A stretch of 44,435 nt of DNA from an uncultured Lachnospiraceae bacterium (GTDB lineage Bacteria > Bacillota > Clostridia > Lachnospirales > Lachnospiraceae), in assembly GCA_900314295.1 (NCBI GenBank), contig OMUU01000177.1:1-44435 (forward strand). The letters are read 5' to 3'. The position numbers and the translations under genes were made by a program. This document shows positions 1 to 36,996 of the stretch, piece by piece (within the stretch, counting starts at the first letter, position 1; every line of letters begins with the position of its first letter). Under the pieces are notes generated by a model that was given only the letters and a program-made list of their open reading frames with translations, was not told where the DNA came from and did no database searches.

Positions 1-88
1 AGCCGAATGCGAAGTATTCGTGTGCGGCGAGCGTCGCGATAGCGAGATAAAACTTGCGCAGCGCGTTTTATCTCGTATACGCGAACAG
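1..88 (+). repeat. Dispersed terminator-associated repeat, copy A (cut by window edge)
   Basis: This is the right part of the approximately 100-bp repeat also seen at 21.1, 23.3, 29.3 and 36.5 kb. It contains the second arm of hairpin 1, the conserved core GAGCGTCGCGATAGCGAG and hairpin 2 (GAGATAAAAC pairing with GTTTTATCTC). It ends in the motif GCGAACAG at 81-88. The orientation is plus, so by the rule seen in the other copies a plus-strand gene should end with a terminator just left of the window. That is an inference. Confidence 0.85.
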
Positions 89-5471: not shown

Positions 5472-5510
5472 TCAGAAAAGACAGGCCATAATGTCGCCGG
5501 ACGGCCTGTC
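5472..5510 (-). terminator. Terminator of the V-ATPase operon
   Basis: GACAGGCC (5503-5510 in minus sense) pairs with GGCCTGTC (5480-5487) across a 15-nt loop and is followed by TTTTCTGAT. It lies about 30 bp after the ntpD stop and before the rnf promoter region. Confidence 0.75.
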
Positions 5511-20948: not shown

Positions 20949-21071
20949 CGGTTTTCGTTTATCAAACTTCACGAGAGTGATGAAACTATTTCATTATTAC
21001 GGCACAAGAAATGAGCAGCTCGCCGCATCGTACGTCGTATATGTAAGGATATCTGTAAAACGTATGATTGC

Positions 21072-21189
21072 GGCTGCGGCTCACTGTTCGCGTAAACGAG
21101 ATAAAACACGTTGTGCGAGTTTTATCTCGCTATCGCGACGCTCGCCACACACAAATACTTTGCATTTGGCTGTGGCTCACTGTTCGCGT
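21072..21189 (-). repeat. Terminator-associated repeat, copy B
   Basis: In minus sense it starts ACGCGAACAGTGAGC immediately after the U-tract of the terminator at 21190-21227. Hairpin 1 is imperfect; then follow the core GCGAGCGTCGCGATAGCGAG and hairpin 2 (CGAGATAAAAC/GTTTTATCTCG). It closes with a second ACGCGAACAGTGAGCCGCAG, as if a tandem unit had been truncated. Confidence 0.85.
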
Positions 21190-21227
21190 AAAAAAGGACC
21201 TCCGTGCGTCAATCTGCACAAAGGCCC
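21190..21227 (-). terminator. Terminator after the 112-residue orphan protein
   Basis: GGGCCT...GTGC pairs with GCAC...AGGTCC (21196-21227), followed by six U residues. It lies 55 bp after the stop at 21282 and abuts repeat copy B. Confidence 0.8.
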
Positions 21228-21281
21228 CGGTAACAACGTCAAGAAAAAACAGGCATAACCCGTAATATTGCGGAAAACACA

Positions 21282-21620
21282 TCAGCGCTCAAACGCGAAA
21301 TAGACAATCACGGCTTCTGCGTCCCGGTGAATCCAGACACTTGTGTCCTCGCCGTTATCGCCTTCAAGCTTCCCCGGATAGCATCCGTATTCATGCCCCG
21401 GCTTTTCGGCCTTGCCTCTCGCGGGAGCATCCCCGAAGTCTCCTTTCTGAAATCGTGTCACGTAATTAATGATGCTCTGAAATTCGCTGCCGACGAAATA
21501 GATCTCGCGGATACCTGCGGACAGATAAATGGTCTCTCCGTTTATCGTTCCGTAATATGCGGTTCCGTACCCTTTTTTCTTTCCACTGATGTATTCCTTT
21601 AAATCGCTTAATTTCTCCAT
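21282..21620 (-). CDS. Small protein of unknown function
   Basis: 112 aa from the ATG at 21620, with AAAGGAGG 9 bp upstream; the longer reading to 21695 is less likely. It is soluble, with no signal peptide or membrane helix. It has an N-terminal charged helix (MEKLSDLKEYISGKKKG), a beta-rich middle (TAYYGTINGETIYLSAG), and a C-terminal AVIVYFAFE strand. I do not recognise the family. It stands alone with its own terminator, next to repeat elements. Confidence 0.75.
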   Translation of the reverse strand: MEKLSDLKEYISGKKKGYGTAYYGTINGETIYLSAGIREIYFVGSEFQSIINYVTRFQKGDFGDAPARGKAEKPGHEYGCYPGKLEGDNGEDTSVWIHRDAEAVIVYFAFER

Positions 21621-21712
21621 AGAGGGCACCTCCTTTTCACCCATTTTACCGCGGTTCGCGGCAAACGGCAACGTGAAAAGAACCGGAACAGGCATACCAT
21701 CCGCCGCTTACA

Positions 21713-22049
21713 TTACTGTTCACGCGCCACCTAAAACGGCTAAGATATTACAGTACCTTTGCCTGAGCATTACTGGCTGTTAAAAGTTTTATCCGTGAAT
21801 TCTTCAAGAAATGGATTGCGAGGACTTTGCGATGAGCACTTAGCGGGCGCTTGCGGCCGCTTACGTGCGACGCATACAAATCCCTTGGCGAATGAAATGA
21901 GCCTAGTAGATTTGTAGTCTGACGAAGGCGCTTGCGCCTGAGGAGTTCCGCAGCTTCATAAAATCAGGATAAAACTTTGTTACAGCCAGTTTGCGAATGA
22001 CAACAGGACTGTAAAATCCTTGCCGTACATAATTGTGAGTGAACAGTAA
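21713..22049 (+). mobile_element. MITE-like element, repeat family 2 full form
   Basis: The 337-bp segment is bounded by a perfect 11-bp inverted repeat, TTACTGTTCAC (21713-21723) and GTGAACAGTAA (22039-22049). It holds the left and right hairpin arms also found fused in the compact copy at 14611-14706, with some 220-230 bp between them. No transposase or credible ORF is inside, so it would be non-autonomous. Clear target duplications are not visible. Calling it mobile is inference from termini and recurrence. Confidence 0.6.
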
Positions 22050-22362
22050 CCCCAAAGACCATGCGGCACGATCCGAAGCAGGCAAACGATTGCGCTTTTC
22101 TCTCATGTGTATTATGATAACAGCAATATCACCTATCTGGCAAGGGAATAGAGATCATCCAATTGTTGATTTTTCTCATAATCAGAGATTTGTTCTATGC
22201 TTTTATCACCATTTTATACATATCACATCATGATCGCCATATTCTTTCGTACAGCATGCCGGTTCCTGCCGTCATCCACACACGAGGAACAATCCGTACC
22301 TTATTCAGTTTATGATATTGTATATTGCAGAAGTATTTACATGATTAACGAGGTATCCGACT
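22050..22362. other. Intergenic region before the aldo/keto reductase
   Basis: AT-rich sequence with no ORF of note. TATATT and TATGAT boxes around 22310-22325 could be -10 elements for the downstream gene, but no matching -35 is convincing. A CGAGGT site precedes the ATG at 22363. Confidence 0.4.
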
Positions 22363-23229
22363 ATGAATGAAGAATTTAACCCGATTACCATCCCTTCCCT
22401 CTCCCTGAATGACGGGAATAGTATCCCCGTTCTGGGTCTGGGCGTATACAAGACAACAGAGGAAAAAGAAATGCATACCGCCGTGGACGCAGCTTACCGC
22501 TGTGGTTATCGTCTGTTCGACACTGCCTCTGTCTATGGCAACGAAGAGATCCTCGGAAACGCAATCCGGGACCTGGGAATTCCGAGGCAGGACATCTTTC
22601 TCACCTCTAAGGTCTGGAACAATGCACAGCGGCTCGGAGATGTCCCCGGCGCTTTCCATCGAACTATGAACCGGCTGGGAACCGATTACATCGACCTTTA
22701 CCTGATTCACTGGCCCGTCCCGGGTTGTATCCGTCAGACATGGACCGAGCTGATCCATCTGAAGGAGGCCGGTCTTACCCGATCCATCGGTGTAAGCAAT
22801 TTCACTCCGGCCCAGCTCGAATCTCTGGAAAGAGAAACCGGCGTCGTACCGGTTCTGAATCAGATTGAATGCCACCCTCTCTGGCGCCAGAAGGAAACCG
22901 TCGACTACTGCCAGAGCCACGGTATTCAGGTACAGGCCTACGCACCGCTCGCCCGCGGCGCGTATATGGACCGCGAGATCCTGCGCACAATTGGTGCGAG
23001 ATACGGAAAGACGCCAGCGCAGGTCGGTCTGCGCTGGCTGATTCAGCGCGGAATCTCCGCAATTCCAAAATCCGTACATCCCTCCCGTATTGCCGAAAAC
23101 GCCGCAATCTTTGACTTTTCCCTTACAGGCCCGGAAATGACCGCCATCGACGCCATGGATGAATGCCTGCGAACCGCCCATGTTCCCGAGGATCTTATCG
23201 ATACAGAATGGGCAGTCCTGACCGACTGA
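22363..23229 (+). CDS. Aldo/keto reductase, AKR5-like (YvgN/DkgA type)
   Basis: 288 aa. An NADPH-dependent carbonyl reductase of the 2,5-diketo-gluconate/methylglyoxal group. The catalytic residues are in order: Asp and Tyr in LFDTASVYGNE, Lys in FLTSKVWN, and His in LYLIHWPVPG. The C terminus has the usual AIPKSVHPSRIAEN cofactor loop. It is a single gene converging on gpsA. It differs in subgroup from the enzyme at 15.5 kb, so the two are not recent duplicates. The exact substrate is unknown. Confidence 0.93.
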   Translation: MNEEFNPITIPSLSLNDGNSIPVLGLGVYKTTEEKEMHTAVDAAYRCGYRLFDTASVYGNEEILGNAIRDLGIPRQDIFLTSKVWNNAQRLGDVPGAFHRTMNRLGTDYIDLYLIHWPVPGCIRQTWTELIHLKEAGLTRSIGVSNFTPAQLESLERETGVVPVLNQIECHPLWRQKETVDYCQSHGIQVQAYAPLARGAYMDREILRTIGARYGKTPAQVGLRWLIQRGISAIPKSVHPSRIAENAAIFDFSLTGPEMTAIDAMDECLRTAHVPEDLIDTEWAVLTD

Positions 23230-23315
23230 AAGCAACCGGGTCCCCGCATCCGATTCTACCCGCAGCATTGGCGGACAACCATTGTAAGTCCCCCTCCCGG
23301 GGAAGACCGCCTTCC

Positions 23316-23412
23316 AACGAGATAAAACACGCCGCGCGAGTTTTATCTCGCTATCGCGGCGCTCGCTGCAGCCGAATACTTCGTATCCAGCTGCGGCTCA
23401 CTGTTCGCGCGT
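23316..23412 (-). repeat. Terminator-associated repeat, copy C
   Basis: In minus sense it begins GCGCGAACAGTGAGC right after the gpsA terminator. It contains hairpin 1 (GCAGCTGGATAC/GTATTCGGCTGC, paired through G-U wobbles), the core GCGAGCGCCGCGATAGCGAG and hairpin 2. It sits between two convergent genes. Confidence 0.85.
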
Positions 23413-23445
23413 GAAAAGGCCGCCATGCTTAACGCACGGCGGCCT
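23411..23445 (-). terminator. Terminator of gpsA-side operon
   Basis: AGGCCGCC pairs with GGCGGCCT (23417-23445 on the plus strand) around a 13-nt loop, with TTTTC after it in minus sense. It lies 24 bp after the gpsA stop. Confidence 0.8.
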
Positions 23446-23468
23446 CCACTCATTTCAGCTGTATCTTT

Positions 23469-24476
23469 TTATTCGTCCCACTCTTCGATCTCGTCCTTTC
23501 CGTCCCGCTGCATCAGCTCGTTTACACCGTCACGGGCGGATTTTCCCTGAAAGAGCACCTCATTCACTTCGTTCACAATCGGCATGTCGACATGATATTT
23601 TTCTGCGAGCATTTTTCCCGCTTTCGCGGAATAAACGCCCTCGACCACCTGATGTACTTCCTTCATCGCGTCTTCCATGCTGTACCCCTGCCCCATCAGA
23701 TAGCCAGCTCTGCGGTTCCGGCTGTGAAGGCTCGCGCAGGTTACAATCAGGTCCCCGATTCCCGAAAGGCCATAGAGCGTTCTCATATGGATCCCCATCG
23801 CGCTTCCGAGTCTTGCAAGCTCCGCACTTCCTCTCGTGATCAGCGCAGCCTTCGTGTTGTCTCCGTATCCGAGTCCGTCCGCGATTCCCGCGGCAAGAGC
23901 CATCACATTCTTTAATGCCGCGCCAAGCTGAATTCCCTTCATATCTGAGCTTGTATACACACGGAATACCGGCGACATAAATACCGCCTGCACATACTCC
24001 GCAGTTTCCCTGCTGTGCGCTCCGGCAACGATTGCCGTCGGAAGGCCTTTTCCAACCTCCTCTGCATGACTGGGTCCCGAAAGAACAGCAACATTCGCCT
24101 GCGGAATTTCCTGCTCAACAATCTCACTCATCGTCATCAGAGAGCTCTCCTCGATTCCCTTTGCCACACTCACAATCAGTTGCCCCGGCCGCACGAGCGT
24201 GCTCATCTTCTGCGCCGTGCTCCGAACGGCAGGAGACGGTACCGCCAGCACAAGCAGATCCCTTCCGGTGCAGGCCTCTCCAAGATCCGTCGTGTAGCGC
24301 ACAGAATCCGGAAGAACCACACCCGGCAGCTTGTCCGTGTTCTGGTGGTTCTTTTTATACATCTCCGTCTCTTCCTCCCGGTAAGACCAGAGAGTCATCT
24401 CGTGTCCGTTGTTGCATAAAAGCCAGGTAAGTGCCGTGCCCCAGCTTCCCGAACCGATTACACTGATTTTTGCCAT
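23469..24476 (-). CDS. gpsA: Glycerol-3-phosphate dehydrogenase [NAD(P)+]
   Basis: 335 aa from the ATG at 24476, preceded by GGGAGGT. It reduces dihydroxyacetone phosphate to sn-glycerol-3-phosphate, the entry to phospholipid synthesis. The N-terminal dinucleotide fold begins ISVIGSGSWGTALTW. The catalytic region GAALKNVMALAAGIADGLGYGDNTKAALITRG is intact and the length is normal. The pairing with plsY directly upstream makes a membrane-lipid module: GpsA makes the acceptor that PlsY acylates. Confidence 0.97.
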   Translation of the reverse strand: MAKISVIGSGSWGTALTWLLCNNGHEMTLWSYREEETEMYKKNHQNTDKLPGVVLPDSVRYTTDLGEACTGRDLLVLAVPSPAVRSTAQKMSTLVRPGQLIVSVAKGIEESSLMTMSEIVEQEIPQANVAVLSGPSHAEEVGKGLPTAIVAGAHSRETAEYVQAVFMSPVFRVYTSSDMKGIQLGAALKNVMALAAGIADGLGYGDNTKAALITRGSAELARLGSAMGIHMRTLYGLSGIGDLIVTCASLHSRNRRAGYLMGQGYSMEDAMKEVHQVVEGVYSAKAGKMLAEKYHVDMPIVNEVNEVLFQGKSARDGVNELMQRDGKDEIEEWDE

Positions 24477-24559
24477 AAACCCACCTCCCGAATATATGTC
24501 TCTTCCCGCCCGCAAAAATTACAATGAATGTCTTTGTCTGCCCGGCCGAACGTATCCCA

Positions 24560-25219
24560 TCACTTGTCCGACTGATGACGATGGCTCAGATACGTCTTCC
24601 TCTCGCATCCGGCTGCAAGTCTCTTGATATTGCCCCGATGCTGAAACCACGCCAGACCGGTCAGGATCGCAACGATCACGCACATCTCGATAAGCCTGGG
24701 TGACGTCATCGGATAACGCCCCATTGCACTGAATACGCAGAGAAACACAAGGAACTCCGTGGACAGCGACAACGAGCTAAGCGATACATAATGCGTCACA
24801 AAAAAGATGGAGAAAAACAGCACCGTTCCCACCAGGATCATCGGCCAGTCTCCGAAGGCGATCACCATGCCCGCGGTCGCAGCGATTCCCTTGCCCCCTT
24901 TAAAATCCATATAAAACGGATAATCATGTCCGAGGATGACCCCCGCCGCCGTCCAGATCTTAAGGAGCGGAAAAAGTTCGGGATTCGAACTGCGGAAAAT
25001 CAGCCAGGTCAAAACAACCGCAAGGATACACTTGGAAACATCTCCGGCCATCGTCATGAGCCCCGCCTTCGTCCCGAGTGTACGAAGCGCGTTCGTCGTT
25101 CCCGCATTGCCGCTTCCAAGCTTACGGATGTCGACACCATTCGCTTTTCCGATAAAATAAGAGGTCTGAAACAGACCGAAGCCGTATCCGATCAGCAGAC
25201 AGCAAGCCCGTGCAAGCAT
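24560..25219 (-). CDS. plsY: Acyl-phosphate:glycerol-3-phosphate acyltransferase
   Basis: 219 aa. An integral membrane enzyme transferring the acyl group of acyl-phosphate to glycerol-3-phosphate. The three PlsY motifs are seen: GSGNAGTTNALRTLG, DFKGGKGIAAT, and a third region near residues 165-190. There are five or more membrane helices. It starts 3 bp after der, and the order der-plsY-gpsA is common in Firmicutes. Confidence 0.96.
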   Translation of the reverse strand: MLARACCLLIGYGFGLFQTSYFIGKANGVDIRKLGSGNAGTTNALRTLGTKAGLMTMAGDVSKCILAVVLTWLIFRSSNPELFPLLKIWTAAGVILGHDYPFYMDFKGGKGIAATAGMVIAFGDWPMILVGTVLFFSIFFVTHYVSLSSLSLSTEFLVFLCVFSAMGRYPMTSPRLIEMCVIVAILTGLAWFQHRGNIKRLAAGCERKTYLSHRHQSDK

Positions 25220-25222
25220 TTC

Positions 25223-26554
25223 TCAGTTTTCCTCCTTATCCTGCCTCTCCCTGATAATAAAGCGAATCGCGGTTCCCCTGAATCCGAAGGCATCGCGCAC
25301 CCGGTTCTCCAGATATCTCTGATAAGAAAAATGCATCAGCTTCTTCTCGTTCACAAAGATCACGAAGGTCGGCGGCTTAACCGCTACCTGTGTCATATAG
25401 AACACCTTCAGCCTCCGGCCCTTATCTGACGGCGGCTGCTGCATAGCCAGGGCCTCCGTCAGAATATCGTTCAGAACGCCTGTCTGCACGCGAAGCGTCT
25501 GCGAATCCAGAATCTCATCGATGGTATCAAAAAGCTTCGGAAGCCTCTGCCCGGTCTTCGCCGAAATAAAAATAATCTCCGCATAATACGCAAAGGAAAG
25601 GGTATTTCTGACCTTGTCCGTAAATTCCTTTACAGACTTGTCATCCTTCTCAATGGCATCCCACTTGTTCACTGCAACGATCAGGCCCTTGCCTCTCTCG
25701 TGGGCGATTCCCGCGATCTTCGCATCCTGCTCGGTGATTCCCTCTTTCGCATCGATGACGACCACCGCAATATCGCAGCGCTCTACGGCAGAAACGGTCC
25801 GGATGATACTGTACCGTTCCAGATCCTCCTTGATCTTGCTCTTTCTCCGGAGACCCGCCGTATCGATAAAGGTGTAATTCTTCCCATTCCGGGAAATGGC
25901 GGTATCAATGGCGTCTCTCGTGGTTCCCGCGATATCCGACACAATGACCCGGTTGTCTCCGAGCAGCTTATTGATGATGGAGGACTTGCCCACATTCGGC
26001 TTGCCCACCACAGCGATCTTCGGGTTCTCATCGTCCTCATCCGCCTCTGCCCCTTCCGGGAACTTTGTGATTACCGCGTCGAGCAGATCACCCAGTCCCA
26101 GCTTTCCCTCCGCGGAAATCGGGTACGGCTCGCCGATGCCAAGATTATAGAACTCATATACATCCATCTCCTGCGACTTGAAATTGTCTACCTTATTCAC
26201 CGCAAGCACGATCGGCTTCCGGCTTTTGCGCAGCATGGTGGCCACCTGGAAATCCGCATCCGTCAGTCCCTGACGTACATCCGTCATGAAAATGATCACA
26301 TCTGCGGTATCGATGGCAATCATTGCCTGCTCTCTCATCTGCGAAAGGATCACATCGCTGCTGTCCGGCTCGATACCGCCGGTATCAATCATCGTAAACT
26401 CATGGGAAAGCCAGCTCACGTCCGTATAGATCCGATCCCTGGTCACTCCCGGCGTATCCTTCACGATAGAGATTCTCTCTCCCGCCAGAGCATTAAATAA
26501 TGTAGACTTCCCAACATTAGGCCGTCCCACAACTGCTACTATCGGTTTGCTCAT
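25223..26554 (-). CDS. der: Ribosome assembly GTPase Der (EngA)
   Basis: 443 aa from the ATG at 26554 (MSKPIVAVVGRPNVGKST), behind AAAGGAG; an upstream in-frame start at 26632 lacks a ribosome site. There are two tandem GTPase domains with P-loops GRPNVGKST and GKPNVGKSS, each with DT(A/P)G and NKxD motifs. A C-terminal KH-like domain ends the protein. It acts in 50S subunit maturation. Its start lies inside the DUF512 gene end (38-bp overlap), suggesting coupling. Confidence 0.97.
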   Translation of the reverse strand: MSKPIVAVVGRPNVGKSTLFNALAGERISIVKDTPGVTRDRIYTDVSWLSHEFTMIDTGGIEPDSSDVILSQMREQAMIAIDTADVIIFMTDVRQGLTDADFQVATMLRKSRKPIVLAVNKVDNFKSQEMDVYEFYNLGIGEPYPISAEGKLGLGDLLDAVITKFPEGAEADEDDENPKIAVVGKPNVGKSSIINKLLGDNRVIVSDIAGTTRDAIDTAISRNGKNYTFIDTAGLRRKSKIKEDLERYSIIRTVSAVERCDIAVVVIDAKEGITEQDAKIAGIAHERGKGLIVAVNKWDAIEKDDKSVKEFTDKVRNTLSFAYYAEIIFISAKTGQRLPKLFDTIDEILDSQTLRVQTGVLNDILTEALAMQQPPSDKGRRLKVFYMTQVAVKPPTFVIFVNEKKLMHFSYQRYLENRVRDAFGFRGTAIRFIIRERQDKEEN

Positions 26555-27899
26555 ACATCTGTCTCCTTTTATGTATACTGCCCTTCGTCTCTCCGAGAAC
26601 CGCAAGGCAGAAGTCCTTTCCTGCCGGATCAACCACGGTGACGGGAACCTTTAATTCCATTATAACCTGTTCTACCGTGATGTCATCCAGAAAAACATTT
26701 TCCCCGGACCGCAGCATGTTGCACGGAATCAGGAGCTCTTCCCCGAGTTCCCTCCCCTTCAACTGACGGATCAAATCCGTCCCGGTGACGAGCCCGGAAA
26801 CCGTGATTCTCTCACCGAAGAAATCGTTCCGGATCGGGACGATCTGCACGCGCACCTGCGGGTATTTCTCCCGGATCAGTCCGCACATCCTTTGGATGGT
26901 ATCTGCCGGAAGCTTCCCCGTCGCAATCGTGAGATTCCGCACCCGGTCGTCTCCGCTGCGTTTCCTCAGTTCCGCTCTAACCTCTGTTTCCAGAAGCCTC
27001 AGCATACCGACCCCGTTTTCCAGCTGCAGATACCCGTCATACCGTTTCTCCTCCGGAATCTCTCTGCCCGCCAGGAGATACCACTCGTCCGATGCGTGTA
27101 CAAAGTGTACGCCATACTCCGGATACAGCTTCTTCTGCCAGGCTTCGATACGATCGATTACCTCTGCCGCATCCTCTACGCTAAAGGGCTCCAGAGGATA
27201 CAATCCGTCGCGAAACCTGGAAAGCCCTACCGGCACAACCGAAAGGCTCCGAAGCGCAGGCAGATACCCGGTCAGATCACGGATGGTCCGCTCCAGCTCC
27301 TCGCCGTCATTCAGATTCTTGCACAATACAATCTGACCATTCAGCTCGATTCCCGCGTCCGCCAGCCGTCTCACCTTTGGAAAAACATCCCCCGCGAAAC
27401 GATTGTGAAGCATCTTCACTCGCAGCGCAGGATTCGTCGTTTGAAAGGAAATATTTATGGGTTCCATCCGGTAACGGATGATGCGGTCAATATCGTCGTC
27501 ACTCATATTCGTCAAGGTGACATAGTTGCCCTGAAGGAAAGATAGCCTGGAGTCATCATCCTTGAAATAGAGCGTGTCCCGCATTCCCTTCGGCATCTGA
27601 TCGATAAAGCAGAAAACGCAGTGGTTGCTGCAGGACTTGTAATCGTCCATCAGGCCGTTTTCAAACTCTACGCCCAAATCCTCATCCGGGTCCTTCTCAA
27701 TTTCCAGTTCCCATTCCTCCCCGGATTTCTTCCGTATCAGTACCACAATGTAGCTGTCGCTGACCAGAAACCGGTAGTCGAAAATATCCTCAATTTCCTT
27801 TCCATTGATCTTCAGAATCTCATCGCCGGGCTCCATTTCCATCTCCTCGGCAATGCTCCCGGGTTTAATTTTCCTTATAATATGTGCGGTCTTTCCCAT
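26517..27899 (-). CDS. DUF512 family PDZ/radical-SAM-like protein
   Basis: 460 aa. An N-terminal PDZ-like domain (residues about 1-75) contains GSIAEEMEMEPGDEILKINGK. Next comes a radical-SAM-type cluster motif CSNHCVFC with FIDQMPKGMRDTLYFKDDD, then the DUF512 domain in the C-terminal half. The family is widespread in Clostridia and usually next to der; its reaction is not established to my knowledge. The C-terminal tail of about 15 residues is Ser/Thr/Gln-rich. It is the first gene of the der-plsY-gpsA run, with its own promoter. Confidence 0.93.
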   Translation of the reverse strand: MGKTAHIIRKIKPGSIAEEMEMEPGDEILKINGKEIEDIFDYRFLVSDSYIVVLIRKKSGEEWELEIEKDPDEDLGVEFENGLMDDYKSCSNHCVFCFIDQMPKGMRDTLYFKDDDSRLSFLQGNYVTLTNMSDDDIDRIIRYRMEPINISFQTTNPALRVKMLHNRFAGDVFPKVRRLADAGIELNGQIVLCKNLNDGEELERTIRDLTGYLPALRSLSVVPVGLSRFRDGLYPLEPFSVEDAAEVIDRIEAWQKKLYPEYGVHFVHASDEWYLLAGREIPEEKRYDGYLQLENGVGMLRLLETEVRAELRKRSGDDRVRNLTIATGKLPADTIQRMCGLIREKYPQVRVQIVPIRNDFFGERITVSGLVTGTDLIRQLKGRELGEELLIPCNMLRSGENVFLDDITVEQVIMELKVPVTVVDPAGKDFCLAVLGETKGSIHKRRQMYEQTDSSSCGTA

Positions 27900-27924
27900 T
27901 TTTCATCCTCCGATCATCCTACAA

Positions 27925-27953
27925 ATCATAACAAATCCGTTCTGAAAAAGCAA
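27925..27953 (-). promoter_or_regulatory. Promoter of the DUF512-der-plsY-gpsA genes
   Basis: TTGCTT (27948-27953), 17 bp, TATGAT (27925-27930) in minus sense. It is close to consensus and 26 bp before the DUF512 start. It is back-to-back with the prs promoter. Confidence 0.7.
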
Positions 27954-27973
27954 CTTGACGGCAGAAGCAGGCA

Positions 27974-28002
27974 TTGACACCCCATTTCTTCAATGCTAAG
28001 AT
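27974..28002 (+). promoter_or_regulatory. Promoter of prs
   Basis: Perfect TTGACA (27974-27979), 17 bp, TAAGAT (27997-28002). The leader is about 100 nt and could carry control, but I see no PurR-box-like pair or riboswitch. Confidence 0.8.
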
Positions 28003-28107
28003 GTGTCGTGTACGCCCGTATGAATCCATTATCCGCTATGGCGGAGCTGCTTTTCCGCGGATTTTACCGGGCATCCCGTTGAAAAAAATATCATACCGGA
28101 GGCTTTC

Positions 28108-29277: not shown

Positions 29278-29302
29278 TTCAGAGCCCTTATATCATCTAT
29301 CT

Positions 29303-29338
29303 CTGCCGTACAGCTGCCTTGTACGGCAGTTTTCATTT
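29303..29338 (+). terminator. Terminator of prs
   Basis: CTGCCGTACA (29303-29312) pairs with TGTACGGCAG (29320-29329), a perfect 10-bp stem, followed by TTTTCATTT. Repeat copy D starts directly after. Confidence 0.9.
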
Positions 29339-29446
29339 ACACGAACAGTGAGCTGCAGCCGAATGCGAAGTATTCGGCTGCAGCGAGCGTCGCGATAGCG
29401 GGATAAAACTCGCACAGCGTGTTTTATCCCGTTTCTGTGAACAGTG
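29339..29446 (+). repeat. Terminator-associated repeat, copy D
   Basis: It begins ACACGAACAGTGAGC after the prs U-tract. Hairpin 1 is perfect (CTGCAGCCGAAT/ATTCGGCTGCAG), then the core GCGAGCGTCGCGATAGCGGG. Hairpin 2 reads CGGGATAAAAC/GTTTTATCCCG, a paired change from the CGAG/CTCG of the other copies. It ends TGAACAGTG. It is the only full plus-oriented copy and follows a plus-strand gene. Confidence 0.9.
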
Positions 29447-29480
29447 AAAGTAATATGCCGCGAAACACCTGTATTTCAAT

Positions 29481-29873
29481 TCAATATCTTCTCCGGTTCA
29501 TGCCTCTATATTCCTCATAGGCAAACGCATTCACATGATGTCTCAGCCGGTCTCCCTCAATCGCTATCACATCAAACCTGCAGGGCATATCCATCGGAAT
29601 CCTGTACTGCATCCGGAAATAATCCGCCGCACGGCTGATTCTCCGTCTTTTATTCACATTCACCGCCTCTTCCGGAAGTCCGGCCGCACCGTTTTTTCTG
29701 TACTTTACTTCTATAAATACAAGGCATCTCCAGCCTTCCGCCTCGTCTCTTGCGATCAGGTCAATCTCTCCCGCCCGACACCGGTAGTTTTGATGAACAA
29801 TCAGATATCCCTTTTTCTCCAGATACCTGGCCGCCAGAGTCTCATATCTGGATCCGGTTTTTCTCTTATTCAA
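29481..29873 (-). CDS. yraN: YraN/UPF0102 family nuclease-fold protein
   Basis: 130 aa from a TTG at 29873, which follows GGGAGG at 5 bp; the reading to 29951 has no such site. It belongs to the restriction-endonuclease-like fold family. The core GEIDLIARD...LVFIEVKYR carries the D and ExK residues of the PD-(D/E)xK site. The cellular role is not established. It is the last gene of the translation/secretion run, about 290 bp after rnhB. That gap has a CGCAGAA/TTCTGCG palindrome near 30113-30127 but no clear terminator. Confidence 0.9.
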   Translation of the reverse strand: MNKRKTGSRYETLAARYLEKKGYLIVHQNYRCRAGEIDLIARDEAEGWRCLVFIEVKYRKNGAAGLPEEAVNVNKRRRISRAADYFRMQYRIPMDMPCRFDVIAIEGDRLRHHVNAFAYEEYRGMNRRRY

Positions 29874-30161
29874 CGGCACCTCCCACGAAACCCGCCGGCA
29901 ATCGCATCTGCCGCAGTCCAAAAGGTCCGGAACACGGGCTCCATCAAGCATATTTTGTCGCCAAGTTTTTTTGTCAATTACAAAGGATTTTCCCCGGAAT
30001 CGAGGATTCGATTATTCCACGATTTGTTCTTTCCGATCTCGATATGTTTCATTGATACGATACGGCATAAAAAACCCGCAAAAATCCGGCATGAACCGAT
30101 ACCTATATAAGACGCAGAATTTCTGCGCACCGCTCACACGTGTAAAATAGAAGGTAGCTGA

Positions 30162-30824
30162 TTAAGCGCCCACAAAATGCCCGATAAAGGTTCTTCGGTG
30201 GATCGGACACGGCCCGTATTCCTTCAGTGCCGCAATATGCTCTGCCGTCCCGTATCCCTTGTTCTTAGCAAACCGGTATTCCGGGAATCTCCGGTCATAC
30301 TCAACCATGAGATGATCCCTCGTAACCTTCGCCATGATGCTGGCGGCGGCAATACTCTGGCTCTTCGCATCTCCCTTGACAATCGAGACCTGTTGCACCG
30401 GAATATCCGGAATGTGAACCGCATCCACCAGAAGAAGATCCGGACTCACTCCCAGTTTTGCAACCGCCATGCGCATCGCCTCATAGGTTGCCTGAAGGAT
30501 GTTGATCTCATCAATTCTCTCCGGAGGATTTGCCCCGATCCCGACCGCGACGGCTTCCCGTGAAATCACCTCGAACAGCTCCTCCCGTCTCTTCTCGGAG
30601 AGCTTCTTGGAATCATTGATGTAACGAATCCGAAGATCCTTCGGAAGAATCACGGCGCCTGCCATGACCGGTCCGGCAAGTGGACCTCTTCCCACCTCAT
30701 CAATCCCGCAGATCAGCTCACACTCCGGATATTTTTTCTCAAATTCGCAGAGGGCCTCCACCCTCTCCATTTCCTTCCGGAGTCTTTCCGCCCGTTTCCA
30801 TTCTGCTTCTTCTTTTTTCGTCAT
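30162..30824 (-). CDS. rnhB: Ribonuclease HII
   Basis: 220 aa. It cleaves RNA in RNA-DNA hybrids and single ribonucleotides in DNA. The catalytic acidic residues are in [20 protein letters not shown] (Asp-Glu) and LLVDAV (Asp), and the C-terminal segment [24 protein letters not shown] is diagnostic. An N-terminal charged helix of about 40 residues precedes the domain, usual for Gram-positive RnhB. The start overlaps the rbgA stop by 4 bp. Confidence 0.97.
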
Positions 30825-31708
30825 CTCTGATCTCCAACTTTTTCTGCAGACGCCGCACTTCCATATTCTTCCGGGGTCTCCAGCGTCACTCTTCCGACAG
30901 CCCCTCTGCGGAACTCATCGAGCAGAATACCTGCCGCCTTTTCATAAGACACCTGGTTTCCGGAGGCCAGGCACTTTCTGTTTACCGCGATGTTCTCCAG
31001 AATCCTGACCGGTTCCTCTGACTCCGCCACACCGTACCTCGCTTCCAGAAGGCCGGGATATTCCGCCGCCAGATAACGGATCAGTTCCAGTGAAAGCTCC
31101 TCTGTCTGCACCACCTCATCGCTGACCGAGCCGATCAGTGCCAGTCGCACGCCGGCCTTCGGGTCATCAAATCGCGGCCACAGAATACCCGGCGTATCCA
31201 GCAGATCGAGCTCCTTGCTCAAATGAATCCACTGCTTTCCCTTTGTCACGCCGGGCTTGTTGCCCGTCTTCGCCGACGCTCTTCCCGCCATCGAATTAAT
31301 GAAAGTTGATTTTCCGACATTCGGAATTCCCGCAACCATCGCCTTGATTGTACGGTTTCGAATCCCCCGGCGCCGGTCTCTCTCGATTTTCTCCCGGCAT
31401 GCCTCACGGATCAACGGCTGAACCTGTTTCAGCGACGCCCGGTTCCTGGAATCAGCCAGCAGCACCTGTGCACCCTGCGCCTGATAGTACTCCATCCACA
31501 GTCTGTTCTTTCTCTCATCCGCAAGGTCTGATTTGTTCAGCACGATCACTCTGGATTTCTGTGCCCCCATGCTGCGGATATCCGGATTTCGCCCGGAATA
31601 AGGAATTCTGGCGTCTATCAGCTCGATGATGATATCGATCAGTTTCAGGTCCTCCTGCATCTGGCGCCTCGCCTTCGTCATGTGTCCCGGATACCACTGT
31701 ATTTCCAT
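30821..31708 (-). CDS. rbgA: Ribosome biogenesis GTPase RbgA (YlqF)
   Basis: 295 aa from the ATG at 31708 ([17 protein letters not shown]), behind GGAGG; the longer frame to 31819 has no ribosome site. It is a circularly permuted GTPase: NKSDL (G4) comes before GIPNVGKST (G1) and DTPG (G3). It acts in late 50S assembly around L6/L16 in Bacillus. The C-terminal helical domain is present. Between lepB and rbgA about 130 bp contain an imperfect tandem (around 31741-31820) of a CTTGGGCA-bearing unit. Confidence 0.95.
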
Positions 31709-31840
31709 ACAAATCTTCCTCCAAATAATTCTTCCATCCAGACCGCTACTCCCTTGGGCATTGCTTGCCCATCCGTGCCGGCACTTCCTTGGGCACTGAC
31801 TGCACATCCGTGCCGACACTCCCTGAGACGAAGCCGTCTC

Positions 31841-32548
31841 TTATCCTATAAACGAAACTTTCCGGAAGGGCCGAATCCGAAGCCAGAGCTTCCCGACGAT
31901 GTCCGACTCCGCGACATTGCCCACGGCCTCGTAGCGGCTGTCCTCACTGCCATTCCGATTGTCGCCGAGAACAAAATATTCATCCGAACCAAGCACAACC
32001 GGTTCGGATGCCAGCCCCGGATCAACGATCGAAGCGTAATTATCGTCCACGACGCTCCCGTTGATCAGCACCCTCCCGTCACGGATCTGCACCGTTTCAC
32101 CGGGAAGTCCCACAATTCTCTTAACTCTGAGGCCCTCCCCCAATCTTCCGTTTCCCGAACGGAAGACGATAATATCCCCGCGTTTCGGACGGCTCATCCG
32201 ATAAACCACCTCATTCATCAGACAAGTCTGTCCCGCCGACAGCGTCGGCTCCATAGAGCCTTCATTGATCACGACGCTGTGACAAAACGCATTGGCAAAC
32301 AAAAACGCCAGTACAAGAACCAGAACAACCGCCGCGCACCATCCCCCGATCCGGAAGCCGCGCGGATGCTGATACGCCTTCTTTACGCCTTTCCGTTCTT
32401 CCCGGACGGCCGGTCCTTCTGCTCTGTCAGCCGCCCTCTCGGCATCCTGTCGAAGTGCTGCCTCTGCCTGCCGCCGTTCCAGCGCCTGCTGCTCTACTGT
32501 TTTCGCCCTGACCGGTTTCTCCGGCCTTCCTCTTTTCCTTCTCCCCAT
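31841..32548 (-). CDS. lepB: Signal peptidase I
   Basis: 235 aa from the ATG at 32548 after GGGGAG. It cleaves signal peptides of exported proteins at the outer membrane face. A long, very charged cytosolic N-terminal region (residues 1-66) precedes one membrane helix (about 68-88). The catalytic Ser is S98 in GSMEPTL and the general base Lys is K143 in VKRIVGLPGE. GDNRNGSEDSR is the third family box. The 66-residue Arg/Lys/Glu/Ala-rich head is longer than the usual 10-25. Confidence 0.95.
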   Translation of the reverse strand: MGRRKRGRPEKPVRAKTVEQQALERRQAEAALRQDAERAADRAEGPAVREERKGVKKAYQHPRGFRIGGWCAAVVLVLVLAFLFANAFCHSVVINEGSMEPTLSAGQTCLMNEVVYRMSRPKRGDIIVFRSGNGRLGEGLRVKRIVGLPGETVQIRDGRVLINGSVVDDNYASIVDPGLASEPVVLGSDEYFVLGDNRNGSEDSRYEAVGNVAESDIVGKLWLRIRPFRKVSFIG

Positions 32549-32636
32549 AGTCTCAGCTCCCCGTCTATCTAAATCAGTACTAAAAATCATACCACATCAG
32601 ACAGGAAACTGCCACTATCACGGTGATAGCAGGGAT

Positions 32637-32665
32637 GGAAAAAGGAGACCCCTTTCGGAGTCTCC
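32637..32665 (-). terminator. Terminator after rplS
   Basis: GGAGACTCC/GGGGTCTCC with a GAAA-type tetraloop (32644-32665), then UUUUU in minus sense. It separates rplS from lepB-rbgA-rnhB, which therefore need read-through or their own promoter. Confidence 0.88.
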
Positions 32666-32683
32666 TCATACATTCGAAATGAA

Positions 32684-33031
32684 TTATTTAACCAGAGCTT
32701 TAACCTTAGCAGCTTTTCCGGAACGGCCTCTGAGGTAGTTCAGTTTTGCACGTCTTACCTTACCCTGACGAACAACCTCAACCTTCTCTACAAGCGGAGA
32801 ATGAAGTGGCCATGTCTTCTCAACGCCGATGCCGTTGGAAGTCTTGCGAACAGTAAAGGTAGCGCGATTGCTTCCGCCCTGCTTCTTCAGTACAACGCCT
32901 TCGAAAACCTGGATTCTCTCACGGTTTCCCTCTTTGATCTTTCCGTATACCTTAACGGTATCGCCTACACGGAACTGCGGAACTTCCTTCTTCAGCTGCT
33001 CTTCTTCGATCTTCTTGATAATCTCGTTCAT
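32684..33031 (-). CDS. rplS: 50S ribosomal protein L19
   Basis: 115 aa, standard length. It carries the family hallmarks [20 protein letters not shown] and [13 protein letters not shown]. The protein sits at the 30S-50S interface. A CAAGGAGAG site precedes the ATG. It has its own promoter inside the trmD end and a structured leader, plus a terminator 18 bp after the stop. It is therefore likely to be made at higher levels than its neighbours. Confidence 0.98.
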
Positions 33032-33128
33032 TTCTATCTCTCCTTGATACTATATAAAATGGATGTTCATACCACCGATAAACGTGACAGCGGACCATCA
33101 TCCGGGACTTGCTCACCTGTCCGCAGAC
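33032..33128 (-). promoter_or_regulatory. rplS leader, candidate ribosomal-protein leader RNA
   Basis: The roughly 95-nt leader between the predicted rplS start site and the ATG can form a stem of GCGGAC (33119-33124) with GTCCGC (33090-33095). L19 leaders that sense the protein are known in Firmicutes, and position and size fit. The family match cannot be shown by eye. Confidence 0.4.
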
Positions 33129-33134
33129 TATGAC

Positions 33135-33163
33135 AGTATACACTACCGTCAGTGGAAATGCAA
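33135..33163 (-). promoter_or_regulatory. Internal promoter for rplS
   Basis: TTGCAT (33158-33163), 17 bp, TATACT (33135-33140) in minus sense. The -35 box lies inside the last codons of trmD. Confidence 0.7.
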
Positions 33164-34276
33164 GGTTTTTTCCCTGATATCGAGTGCAGTATTTCGCAAA
33201 AGCGTATCCTCATCGAAAACCGCCGGACTGATTCGGGCGATGATCCGGAACTTCCTTGCCTCCAGAAAAGACGACGCTTCCGCAAGCTCTTCCCGGCTCC
33301 CTACGAGAACCGCAGGGGTCTCCGACCCGTAAAATCCACGAAATCTCTCTGCAAACGAAAGCGCCGGATCATAACAAACGACAGTCTCTGCTTCTCTGCA
33401 GGACGTGCTTCCCTCTCCGGCCGCTCCCGGCATCACCAGAAGCAGAAGATTCCACGGTTTCATACGAAAGGTCGTCTTCTGAAGCTTGCGGCGGTTATAA
33501 TCCATGTATTCCCCATAACGGGTTATGCACTCCGTCAGAGCGCGGCCCTTTTCCGCCGCTCCCGGCTCTCCATAGCTTACACAGACCACACGGTAGCTGT
33601 TCTTCAGTAGGTCCGGACGGCGTTCCTTTGTGCGTTTCAGGGATTCCTCATGTCTCCACTTTTCGATCCGCAGATGATCGCCGGACAGCAGAACAGAGGG
33701 CACGCTCATTTCATGCCATATCTCCGGCCTCGTGTACTGCGGATATTCCAGCAGATTATCCTGCAAGGATTCAAACTGAGAGGATTCCTCATTCGAAAGC
33801 ACGCCGGGAACAAACCGGGACACCGCGTCAATCAGAACCAGCGCCCCGAGTTCTCCTCCCGTCAGCACATAATCACCGATAGAGATGTAATCGGTCACTG
33901 TCTCCTGAAGCACCCTCTCATCAATTCCCTCGTAGTGCCCGCAAAGGATGATCAGATTTTTTTCCTGTGCCAGCGATTCTACCTTGGTCTGATCCAAAAC
34001 CTGCGCCTGAGGAGTCATATATACAACCCTCGGTCTCCCTCCGATTTTCCCCTCGACGGATTTCACAGCCCGGAACACCGGCTCCGGCTCCATCACCATC
34101 CCGGCGCCGCCCCCATACGGATAATCATCTACACGCATGGTTTTTCTCGTGGAAAAATCGCGGATATTCACGGTATCCACAGAGATGCTGCCACTTTTAA
34201 TGGCCCGTCCTGTGATGCTCGTTTCCACGGCATTCTGTATCATTTCCGGAAACAAAGTCAATACATAAAAATTCAA
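33149..34276 (-). CDS. trmD: tRNA (guanine-N1)-methyltransferase TrmD with C-terminal extension
   Basis: 375 aa. Residues 1 to about 225 are a complete TrmD, which methylates G37 of tRNA using SAM. Visible parts are the N-terminal ITGRAIKSG, YGGGAGMVMEPEPV, the SPOUT knot regions LCGHYEGIDERV and ISIGDYVLTGGELGALV, and the substrate-binding WRHEESLKRTKERRPDLL. TrmD usually stops at 240-250 aa. Here about 150 more residues follow in frame with no stop and no ribosome site for a separate gene. The extension looks folded (alternating strands and helices, e.g. RMKPWNLLLLVMPG, EARKFRIIARISPAVF). I do not recognise this domain. Confidence 0.95.
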   Translation of the reverse strand: MNFYVLTLFPEMIQNAVETSITGRAIKSGSISVDTVNIRDFSTRKTMRVDDYPYGGGAGMVMEPEPVFRAVKSVEGKIGGRPRVVYMTPQAQVLDQTKVESLAQEKNLIILCGHYEGIDERVLQETVTDYISIGDYVLTGGELGALVLIDAVSRFVPGVLSNEESSQFESLQDNLLEYPQYTRPEIWHEMSVPSVLLSGDHLRIEKWRHEESLKRTKERRPDLLKNSYRVVCVSYGEPGAAEKGRALTECITRYGEYMDYNRRKLQKTTFRMKPWNLLLLVMPGAAGEGSTSCREAETVVCYDPALSFAERFRGFYGSETPAVLVGSREELAEASSFLEARKFRIIARISPAVFDEDTLLRNTALDIREKTLHFH

Positions 34277-34413
34277 GCTGTATACCTCTCAAACGGGCCA
34301 CTCACAATTTCACCCTCTACCGGAAGGAATCTGTCGTCTGCAATCGCGCTGATCAAAACATAATCCGCCAGATATCGCATGACTCTGTCGGTCTCTCAGG
34401 AAAAAAGCGAAGG

Positions 34414-35829
34414 TTATCGCAGCCAAAAGGCAGCCGCTGCCTGCCCGGCAGATGAGGACGTACCTCCCTGGAGCTGCTTCAGATAATCCTCGATCTGCTT
34501 CATAAAGGCAGGATCTCTCATCAGCTTGGCTACCTCGATAAAGGCAATCAGATACACGACAAACAGCACCATGCACATGATCAATGCTGCAATCGCCATT
34601 CCCTTCCCCTTGTAAACCCCCGGATTATTCCGAATCTGATTCAATGCCACAATGGCAAAGAAAATACCGAGTACCGAAGGAATACAGTACAGGCTGTTCA
34701 GGAAAATGGAAACAATCGCGAGCGCCATTGCCGCAACCGCGAAACTGTTGTTTCTTGCCGGATACCCCGGGCCGTATCCCTGTCCATAAGAACCATAGCC
34801 CTGATTTCCGGGCCATCCTCCGTTCGGGTTGCCGGCGTTCCAGCCCCTGTTATCGCCGTTCTTCCAGCCGTCCTCTGCATTCCGGCCATTCCAGCCATTG
34901 CCCGAATTTCCGCTGTTTGAACCGTTTCCGCTCCAGTCGCCGTCTGCGCTCCGGCTATTCTGAGCGTCATCCCGGTTATTCGGGAAGTTCCCCGCAGATG
35001 AGGCGTCATGCCAGGTACCGTTCTCCCAATACCTTCCGTCCCCGGAGCCTGCCCCTTTCTTATTGTCCGTCTCACCGGAATTCAGATCTGAAATCGGATG
35101 CCATTTTCCCTGAAACCAATAGCCGCCGGGCTGATCAGACTCTTTTTCCTGATTTCCTCCCCGGAACGTATCCCGATCACTGCCGAAGCTGCCCGCATGC
35201 ACAGAAGCACTCTCTCCACCGCCGTTTTTGGCCTCAGCCTTTTTCCGGTCAGCTTCCTCCGGATCCCACGGGATGTCGATTTTGTCCTCGGAATCCTCCT
35301 TGTCCCATACAACGCGATGCGCGTCCGCTGCAGCAGACGCCGTCTGATCCGCCGCCCCGTCGTTCTTCGTTTCTGTTATTTCGGAATCTGCCGCAGGAGT
35401 GTTCGTCCGTTCCGTCATTCCCAAATCTGCCGCAGGAGTGTTCGTCCGTTCCGTCATTTCCAATTCTGCCGCGGGAGTGTTCGGCCGTTCCGTCATTCCC
35501 AATCCTGCCGCGGGAGTGTTCGGCCGTTCCGTCATTCCCAATCCTGCCGCGGGAGTATTTGTCCGATCCGTTATTTCAGAATCTCCCGCAGAAGCATTTG
35601 ACGTCTCCAACTGTCTCTCCGGATCTGCAGCCTTATCTATATCTGCGGATGGATTATCTTTCTCAGCAGCTCCGGCAGCACCATCTTCCGAAGGTATCTC
35701 TCCCGATACCCGCGGTACCTCCGGATTCACAGCAGAAGCCGTATCCGGTTTACCGACCGGCCAACCGCAGTTGCCGCAGGCCTTTGCATCATCCGGAAGC
35801 TCCGCGCCACAATGTATGCATTTTTTCAA
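34414..35829 (-). CDS. Zinc-ribbon protein with tandem repeats and DUF4190-like membrane end
   Basis: 471 aa from a TTG at 35829 (MKKCIHCGAELPDDAKACGN), preceded by AGAGAGG; a GTG at 35886 is the alternative. Order of parts: an N-terminal zinc ribbon with cysteines C4, C7, C18, C21; an acidic, Thr/Asn/Ala-rich linker with five 13-residue repeats; a short GYWFQGKWHPISDLNSG-type motif and a related RYWENGTWHDA (likely SH3/GYF-like tryptophan motifs); a Gly/Asn/Trp-rich stretch; and two C-terminal membrane helices as in DUF4190. A cell-envelope or membrane-organising role is plausible but unproven. Its place between rimM and trmD is not the usual gene order. Confidence 0.85.
   Translation of the reverse strand: MKKCIHCGAELPDDAKACGNCGWPVGKPDTASAVNPEVPRVSGEIPSEDGAAGAAEKDNPSADIDKAADPERQLETSNASAGDSEITDRTNTPAAGLGMTERPNTPAAGLGMTERPNTPAAELEMTERTNTPAADLGMTERTNTPAADSEITETKNDGAADQTASAAADAHRVVWDKEDSEDKIDIPWDPEEADRKKAEAKNGGGESASVHAGSFGSDRDTFRGGNQEKESDQPGGYWFQGKWHPISDLNSGETDNKKGAGSGDGRYWENGTWHDASSAGNFPNNRDDAQNSRSADGDWSGNGSNSGNSGNGWNGRNAEDGWKNGDNRGWNAGNPNGGWPGNQGYGSYGQGYGPGYPARNNSFAVAAMALAIVSIFLNSLYCIPSVLGIFFAIVALNQIRNNPGVYKGKGMAIAALIMCMVLFVVYLIAFIEVAKLMRDPAFMKQIEDYLKQLQGGTSSSAGQAAAAFWLR
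35365..35559 (-). repeat. Five tandem 39-bp repeats inside the zinc-ribbon gene
   Basis: Five units of 39 bp encode 13-residue repeats of the pattern NTPAAxxxMTERx. The middle units are nearly identical at DNA level (the two NTPAAGLGMTERP units match almost base for base) while the outer ones have drifted. This indicates recent expansion by slippage or recombination. Copy number may vary between strains. Confidence 0.92.
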
Positions 35830-35918
35830 TTCGCGTATACCTCTCTTTTCACAAAAAGGCGTCCCGGAGTCAATCGCCTCCGGCACATTTCACAGGCAGC
35901 AGCTGACTGCCGCCAGTC

Positions 35919-36431
35919 TCATCCGTCGATCAAACCGGGAAGCAAATGAACCGTCATCTCGCCCTCCTCGACGTTAACCCTCATAATACACGCTTTAATT
36001 GCGGGAATCAACACTTCCCCGTGCTCCTTCGTCTGAACAACATAGACATCATTGGCCCCGGTTTCCATAACGTCCTTAAGAGTTCCGAAGAGCTTTCCGT
36101 CCTCTGTCCGGACCGTCATACCAATGACATCCGCGACATAGTACTCATTTTCCTTCAGGGGCACTCCCTTTTCCCGGGGAATCATCACATCCCAAGAGCG
36201 GTATCTCACCGCCTCATCCATGGATTCGATCCCCTCCAGTTTCAAAATAACCAGGTTCTTAAAAAACTTGACTCCGACAATCGAATGCGTCTCCGACTGC
36301 TTTCCATTTGTCAGAATCACCTCATCCAGATCCAGGAACCGCTGCGGGTCGTCCGTCGTCGGAAATACCTTCATTTCTCCGCGAACGCCGTGTGTTGTCG
36401 TCACTGCACCGATTTTCAGAAATTTTTCCAT
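35919..36431 (-). CDS. rimM: Ribosome maturation factor RimM
   Basis: 170 aa from the ATG at 36431 (MEKFLKIGAVTTTHGVRGEMKVFP). RimM helps 30S maturation by binding S19. The N-terminal RimM domain and the C-terminal PRC-barrel (ENEYYVADVIGMTV onwards) are both present. A possible longer N terminus to 36473 lacks conservation. It is separated from khpA by a terminator and repeat copy E, which interrupts the usual tight operon. Confidence 0.95.
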   Translation of the reverse strand: MEKFLKIGAVTTTHGVRGEMKVFPTTDDPQRFLDLDEVILTNGKQSETHSIVGVKFFKNLVILKLEGIESMDEAVRYRSWDVMIPREKGVPLKENEYYVADVIGMTVRTEDGKLFGTLKDVMETGANDVYVVQTKEHGEVLIPAIKACIMRVNVEEGEMTVHLLPGLIDG

Positions 36432-36540
36432 ATCCTCACCATATCTTCTACATATCTGCTCCAGCCAGCACAATCCGTGAGCCCTGCGAATCTGTCAGCC
36501 CCCGGCCACGGCGCGGTCGAATACCTGCCACAATTCGCAC

Positions 36541-36636
36541 AAACGAGATAAAACACGCTGCGCGAGTTATATCTTGCTATCGCGACGCTCGCCGCATCCG
36601 AATACTTCGCATTCGGATGCGGCTCACTGTTCGCGT
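36541..36636 (-). repeat. Terminator-associated repeat, copy E
   Basis: In minus sense it starts ACGCGAACAGTGAGC at the U-tract of the khpA terminator. Hairpin 1 is perfect (CGCATCCGAAT/ATTCGGATGCG), with the A-T pair in place of the G-C/C-G seen in copy D. The core and hairpin 2 follow; hairpin 2 has two unpaired changes. It lies between khpA and rimM inside a normally continuous operon. Confidence 0.9.
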
Positions 36637-36669
36637 AAAAAAGAGCCGCCGCAAAAGCAGCATCAGCCC
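36637..36669 (-). terminator. Terminator after khpA
   Basis: GGGCT...GCTGC pairs with GCGGC...GGCTC around TTTT (36643-36669, some G-U pairs), followed by six U residues. It lies about 70 bp after the khpA stop. Confidence 0.7.
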
Positions 36670-36738
36670 GAAAGAGATGCCCCTAAAACGACTGCTCTTA
36701 TGAATCATTTATCAGTCACCGCAAGCTGCCCATGCGAT

Positions 36739-36969: not shown

Positions 36970-36996
36970 AAAAATCCACCTCCGGCTTGAATAGGA

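Follow-up and report, generated by a model that had tools for sequence, protein, structure and literature searches.

Analysis of a 44,435-base stretch of DNA from an uncultured Lachnospiraceae bacterium (GenBank assembly GCA_900314295.1, contig OMUU01000177.1; hereafter the window) identified a dispersed repeat of 95 bp as a non-autonomous mobile DNA element with fixed ends. The element is inserted in a single orientation, immediately 3′ of a T-rich hexamer, with a strong preference for T tracts that have a hairpin just in front, i.e. intrinsic terminators. The window is the whole of one contig (G000:C7) in a draft genome of 2.69 Mb and 190 contigs, and the relatives compared include Eubacterium sp. 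UBA4343 (G301), isolate UMB00020 (G311), and RUG391 (G308). Mobile nature and target are well supported, and the mechanism is one that we infer; taken together, a non-autonomous, terminator-targeting mobile element, probably moved in trans as folded single-stranded DNA, is the likely explanation.

In the window, the initial annotation had placed four complete copies (B–E) at terminators and in the orientation of the terminator, which was borne out, as each copy stands behind a hairpin and T tract on the same strand. Each of the four starts within about 10 bases of the hairpin foot, in the T tract or at its end. The places of the copies held, with limits slightly shifted (copy B, for instance, is a full unit plus a partial tandem unit), and the gene names gpsA and prs (ribose-phosphate pyrophosphokinase) were confirmed by Pfam; the product of 36739-36969 we take from its sequence to be KhpA. 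Copy A is incomplete because the contig ends inside the repeat, and the plus-strand terminator predicted for it would lie beyond that end. Scores below are from cmsearch with covariance model R1.

1..76, plus strand: copy A, model positions 19-95, 5′ end cut by the contig end (73 bits).
5474..5475, minus strand: empty terminator site; the orthologous terminator in G301 (L077) is filled.
21066..21093 (approximate), minus strand: partial second unit in tandem behind copy B, from a left-end match in the sequence.
21095..21189, minus strand: copy B, full element (107.7 bits).
21190..21228, minus strand: terminator hairpin (stem 21195-21228, 13 pairs) and T6 tract preceding copy B.
23316..23410, minus strand: copy C, full element (99 bits).
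23411..23444, minus strand: gpsA terminator hairpin and TTTTCAC tract preceding copy C; the element-free counterpart is in G311 (L179).
29303..29338, plus strand: terminator hairpin (29303-29329) and TTTTCATTT tract preceding copy D, 3′ of the ribose-phosphate pyrophosphokinase gene.
29339..29433, plus strand: copy D, full element (107.8 bits).
29435..29447, plus strand: degenerate start of a second unit behind copy D, CTGTGAACAGTGA, from the sequence.
36542..36636, minus strand: copy E, full element, between the presumed khpA (36739-36969) and rimM (35919-36473) (106.3 bits).
36637..36662, minus strand: weak terminator-like hairpin and T6 tract preceding copy E.

The abundance of the element was established by pattern counts and by covariance model. 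The 13-mer GCGAACAGTGAGC, with up to one mismatch, occurred 69 + 68 times on the two strands of the 2.69-Mb genome, counts that include some partial second units, against 1 + 1 for the reversed pattern; the 19-base head of the element occurred 105 times in its own genome and its reversed pattern not at all. Head counts so far above those of the reversed patterns show that the repeat is not due to chance. With up to 150 scored candidates per genome, and with opposite-strand echoes possibly included, the model matched 147 times in the own genome, 137 in G301, 87 in G311, 44 in G308, 12 in G309, 11 in G306, and 2 in G239, and had no match in 9 of 16 species of the genus, some of whose assemblies are incomplete. 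In the stretches examined, 65 copies at different loci were identical in sequence, 53 of them from G301, where one set of loci had been selected by exact pattern and identical copies are hence over-represented; the element must therefore have moved recently.

Anatomy was examined in 173 copies with an intact 5′ end, taken from the genome stretches examined. The ends are rigid: an (A/T)TTT flank is followed by ACGCGAACAG ... ATCTCGTT, with unrelated sequence beyond. Base 2 pairs with base 56 to close hairpin 1, which has an inner stem; hairpin 2 stops only two or three bases short of the right end or includes them. Among 32 diverse copies, both sides had changed in 13 of 37 pairs of a structure derived from the consensus sequence, compared with 4.3 in shuffles, none of 500 reaching the observed value. 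When relatives were added, in an alignment fitted to the model, both-sided changes were seen in 23 of 37 pairs. The two-hairpin fold is thus maintained through compensatory changes. By eye, a tandem G-A step (TGAG opposite CGAG) lies between outer and inner stems in most rows of the alignment. An apical C-GAA-G triloop was present in 129 of 163 copies; as a sign of folding as DNA it was given little weight, because one subfamily has another loop and the copies are not independent. Rfam 15 covariance models gave no match at gathering score in the sequences searched, and none on the element at E values up to 1 in seven loci. An attC-like integron site was dropped for want of what we take to be the core sites, as was a ribozyme, to which nothing pointed.

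For determination of the target, the bases directly 5′ of the insertion were tabulated in the same 173 copies. Four hexamers, TTTTTT (59), TTATTT (51), TGATTT (17), and TAATTT (10), together accounted for 137. The 50 bases upstream, excluding the six before the insertion, were then folded, and a fold of −12 kcal/mol or lower was found for 141 of 173 copies. Among 616 intergenic sites that carry these hexamers, taken from long stretches of the same genomes, 107 had such a fold. Other thresholds gave 145/173 versus 156/616 (−10), 127/173 versus 59/616 (−15), and 99/173 versus 39/616 (−18). With two tandem copies and two with near-identical flanks removed, the fold was present in 139 of 169 (G000, 54/61; G301, 63/76; G311, 21/30; RUG391, 1/2). 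A strict test, in which a single strong stem had to end within 10 bases, was passed by 48% of copies, compared with 6.5% of 600 intergenic and 2.3% of 600 coding controls. The nearest upstream gene was directed toward the element in 100 of 133 copies classifiable with a rough caller of open reading frames (ORFs), a further 28 lying inside called ORFs and 12 having no gene. Ten diverged copies from the genus were also read; a hairpin and T tract precede all six of those from G306 and G239, compared with at most one of the four from G309. Orientation and terminator proximity thus hold genome-wide, though not for every copy, and neither of the refuting results named in the initial annotation, random orientation or absence of terminator proximity, was seen. 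Its claim that the repeat always starts at a terminator stood as to prevalence but not as to "always", about one copy in six being without a clear hairpin.

The same counts bear on the possibility that insertion occurs at random at T tracts, without preference for terminators, and that copies survive only at terminators. Terminators are harmless places, and a T-rich hexamer alone is close to necessary, as such a process would have it. However, the scarcity of hairpins at intergenic sites with the same hexamers speaks against it, as do the identical, and hence young, copies, of which 54 of 65 already have the upstream fold. Because the youngest copies already show the hairpin, choice at insertion explains the enrichment better than later loss does; target choice is favoured over selective retention, and random insertion is considered unlikely.

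Orthologous loci with and without the element were next compared. By a loose criterion, both flanks could be placed in another species for 39 copy–genome pairs, many of which are too diverged to read. In the clearest case, with flanks 95 and 98% identical, the site is empty in G311 (L164), GTTCC-TTTTTT-GAGTG, and filled in the own genome (L025), GTTCC-TTTTTT-element-GAGTG. The gpsA terminator of copy C is likewise element-free in G311 (94% identity over 34 bases). At clean empty sites, any target duplication amounts to two T at most. Wherever the loci could be read, the order is terminator first and element second, and the comparison of orthologous loci places the insertion boundaries at pre-existing terminators. 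Decay was also seen: a site filled in G301 (L195) is a 15-base remnant in G000 (L201), and G301 L072 has lost the hairpin 1 that G000 L011 keeps. At L201, taken as an empty site of G000 whose counterparts in both G301 and G311 are filled, a T-rich stretch follows a stop codon, and a clear hairpin is lacking.

These loci also bear on a second idea in the initial annotation, that of an extended RNA 3′ module, taken here as one under selection: a terminator extension, or an element for stability, spread by its usefulness after genes. Its position on the sense strand after terminators and its conserved fold would suit such a role. Against it stand the orthologous terminators without the element, the shared copy decayed to a remnant, and the 9 of 16 species of the genus, some incompletely assembled, in which the model found no match. 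Given decay of shared copies and element-free orthologous terminators, an RNA 3′ module is not needed to account for the data, and it appears distinctly improbable.

To look for relatives across the family, a second model, built from a wider set of sequences, was run at E values up to 0.001 against 200 genomes, one per genus, and matches were found in 36, the own genome included. Of these, 15 rest on a single match, and several have at least 15 matches of 21 scored. After removal of 7 of 100 rows as opposite-strand shadows, 93 relative copies were read, and were divided, after inspection of the sequences, into lineage A, lineage B, and "other". Lineage A has a second hairpin with a CTCGCnnAGCGTG-like core; an upstream hairpin was found for 55 of 69 copies from 16 genera (one row, L311 in G162, being doubtful), and for 52 of 63 when tandem copies, nested copies, and near-identical flanks were left out. 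One of the four hexamers precedes 45 of the 69. Lineage B, with a second hairpin GTCAAA...TTTGACT, is mostly found after TTATTC or TTATTT, and had an upstream hairpin in only 1 of 11 copies from eight genera. The 13 other copies had one in 8. That lineage B has a similar T-rich target, mostly without the hairpin, is a further point against random insertion. Since A and B share hairpin 1 and differ in target, the structural target seems to be set by the second hairpin or by an enzyme reading it. We entertain only tentatively a broader proposal, that of a family-wide class of mini-transposons that would target the folded terminator hairpin and T tract instead of plain sequence and move as single-stranded DNA by an undescribed kind of enzyme. 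If true, the hairpin-directed lineage A and lineage B, which is not so directed, with their shared first and differing second hairpins, would indicate that the right end sets the target rule.

Several copies occur in larger arrangements. Three head-to-tail units are present in L353:401-681 (G058:C28), the second and third each directly behind the terminal GTTT of the preceding unit, which is self-targeted insertion. In G102, a 235-bp composite repeat contains the element, and the two have been multiplied together (L410, L412, L418, L420, L432, and L437); there the element sits behind a small hairpin, CACCGAAGGTG, and ATTT. G308 has a 155-bp relative with a shared 3′ extension, and in G309 a similar-looking sequence in inverted order lies beside element copies, as if a second repeat family interacts with them (L252:999-1153 and L253:999-1153; also L266 and L273).

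As to mechanism, a trans-acting enzyme may handle the element as folded single-stranded DNA, by analogy with the HUH (Y1) transposases that act on IS200/IS605 and REP sequences. Such an enzyme would join the 5′ end of the element to the 3′ terminus of a hairpin with its T tract, where these lie exposed on the template of the lagging strand. The right end of the element, hairpin 2 followed by TT, appears to resemble the target, which would explain tandem copies. Terminators would be safe sites, and copies would therefore accumulate there; no role for the host is proposed.

The orientation of copies along a chromosome was examined in G102, which has 64 heads; the chromosome, a single contig of 3.59 Mb, carries 62, the two on another contig being excluded. 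With break points left free, 52 of 62 fitted a two-arc strand pattern, whereas 100 shuffles, run on a coarser grid, averaged 40 and never exceeded 46. The two arcs are read as putative replichores. For genes on the leading strand, the sense strand serves as the lagging-strand template, and the bias is consistent with single-stranded DNA as the target, but it is no proof of single-stranded transposition, because gene orientation alone would give it.

A search was made for the mobilising enzyme. The own genome has two Y1_Tnp (PF01797) genes, with ends unlike those of the element; they lie in two different IS605-type transposase loci, L062 (G000:C69) and L061 (G000:C165), one of which has an in-frame stop. 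Across the genus, 30 of 37 Y1_Tnp matches were inspected, including all of those in carriers; a single copy of the element was nearby (L224), about 1 kb off and behind the terminator of another gene. In the family, a search of 20 of the 36 positive genomes gave 45 Y1_Tnp matches, and 30 were inspected. Together with two loci from the genus, these make 32 Y1/RAYT loci, with flanks to ~1.5 kb, in which no model match was found at an E value of 0.05. Y1_Tnp had no match at an E value of 0.001 in 6 of these 20 carriers. Group II maturase (PF08388) had no match in G000, G301, G308, or G306 (drafts, G301 being 85% complete); it is present in G239, weak in G311, and below cut-off in G309, and occurs also in two element-free genomes. 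A long form, with left end, gene, and right end, was not found in the stretches of G000, G301, and G311 searched. That search gave 25 left ends without a right end, some being the same place in overlapping loci and six lying beside assembly gaps; ten were examined and were truncated or gapped, and the sole unpaired left–right pair adjoins a gap. The 155-bp relative in G308 and the 235-bp composite repeat in G102 were rejected as long forms, since neither has room for a transposase gene. In the loci and draft genomes examined, neither Y1 transposases nor group II maturases gained support as movers.

The likeliest of the remaining alternatives is that the element itself belongs to IS200/IS605, as a derivative of PATE or REP-like type whose mover is a Y1 transposase (TnpA or RAYT). 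It has a hairpin near each end, shows no clear target duplication, and is inserted in one orientation 3′ of a brief T-rich target, as described for IS608 (PMC5934647), and some carriers encode proteins that we read as RAYT-like. The absence of a model match from the 32 Y1/RAYT loci, the one copy ~1 kb away among the 30 genus loci, the lack of any Y1 family shared by all four high-copy genomes, and the six carriers without Y1_Tnp point the other way, and we regard this origin as possible though doubtful. Mobilisation in trans by the reverse transcriptase of a group IIC (bacterial-C) intron would account for the target, a hairpin and T tract being the habit of such introns (PMC8919778). It is very unlikely, as PF08388 is without a match in G000, G301, G308, and G306, and the element is shorter than introns and matches no Rfam intron. 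Equally little credence was given to an ordinary miniature inverted-repeat transposable element (MITE), derived from a DDE insertion sequence, whose terminal inverted repeats would be worn and whose target duplication would be the 2 bp TT. The ends share a faint ACG-GA pattern, and at a T tract a TT duplication would be indistinguishable from none; the terminal inverted repeats and target duplication of DDE-type MITEs were otherwise not seen. The fixed orientation to the target is unexpected for an element with symmetric ends, and the stretches searched gave no long relative sharing these ends.

Against the favoured reading, a terminator-targeting mobile element moved in trans as folded single-stranded DNA, several points have to be weighed. 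No mobilising enzyme was found in genomes that are drafts, each read in part; none of the inspected Y1 transposase loci carries element ends, no Y1 family is common to the four high-copy genomes, and G166, with 16 element matches, has no Y1_Tnp match. An IS608-type guide, in which four nucleotides on the 5′ side of the hairpin base would pair with the target, was not visible by eye; in that inspection of the left end the outer stem begins at base 2 and no AAA-rich guide was seen, other registers being possible. Gene orientation confounds the two-arc bias. Roughly one in six copies lacks a clear hairpin, and only 48% pass the strict single-stem test. Single-stranded DNA as the substrate is suggested by structure and by analogy. 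The terminator-targeting, non-autonomous element first suggested by the initial annotation is nevertheless supported by the empty sites, the 65 identical copies, the hairpin enrichment, and the lineage A relatives.

Beyond these results, some observations on location were made. Around copy E (35919-37242, minus strand), there is an apparent gene order rpsP-khpA-rimM, the first two names being our presumption; insertion of copy E may have split or weakened the operon in this species. Copies of the element stand at many contig ends of its own draft genome. Plasmid sequences contained no match to the element, and viral contigs had one exact 18-mer match and none to the patterns of two relatives. 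A phage collection had 10 matches, all in unannotated fecal scaffolds, of which the two with ORFs listed look bacterial; five of the ten were read by eye, and all five lie behind a hairpin and T tract. Scaffolds L405 and L404 (MT836568.1 and MT837554.1), deposited as "Bacteriophage sp.", were read as bacterial chromosome, their content being what we take to be a T-box leader before a tyrosyl-tRNA synthetase gene and pyruvate formate-lyase genes. In L405, a truncated unit lies in a terminator tract, apparently that of the T-box leader.

The element is real, recently active, and widespread, and it is non-autonomous with terminator-directed insertion. In a compact genome no address is safer than a terminator, and this 95-bp element, matched by the model in roughly one in five of the family's sampled genera, indicates that structure-directed targeting is possible in a very small unit. 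Lineages A and B offer a natural comparison for what sets the target. The element further points to a mobilising enzyme, and its copies mark transcript ends. No description of it was found in the literature, open-access papers only.

Among known systems, BOX, RUP, and bcr1 are small repeats of Gram-positive bacteria, ~100-150 bp, that form non-coding, dispersed mobile units. They resemble the element in these general features, and we know of no fixed-orientation terminator targeting by them. PATEs are short derivatives of IS200/IS605 elements, and to our knowledge a preference for a hairpin in front of the target is not a feature of the IS200/IS605 family; seeking of terminators is known to us only from group IIC introns. 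IS608 has hairpin ends and inserts in one orientation 3′ of TTAC (PMC5934647), and no larger target duplication is noted for IS200/IS605 (PMC2817692). The element shares with IS200/IS605 and PATEs the hairpins at both ends, the oriented insertion 3′ of a short T-rich target, and the absence of a larger duplication, but differs in that no transposase with matching ends was found for it and no guide tetranucleotide is visible. REP/RAYT systems comprise abundant hairpin units moved in trans, with units flanking the rayt gene (PMC2817692). Many dispersed intergenic hairpin units, in subfamilies that differ between species, are common to both, but the element has no rayt-flanking units in the 32 loci, no GTAG head, and a fixed orientation after terminators. 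Bacterial-C introns insert directly after rho-independent terminators (PMC8919778). They are long ribozymes with a reverse transcriptase, whereas the element is 95 bp and three of four high-copy genomes have no group II maturase match. The element fully matches none of bacterial-C introns, IS608, and REP/RAYT, and it has in common with the introns insertion right behind a terminator hairpin.

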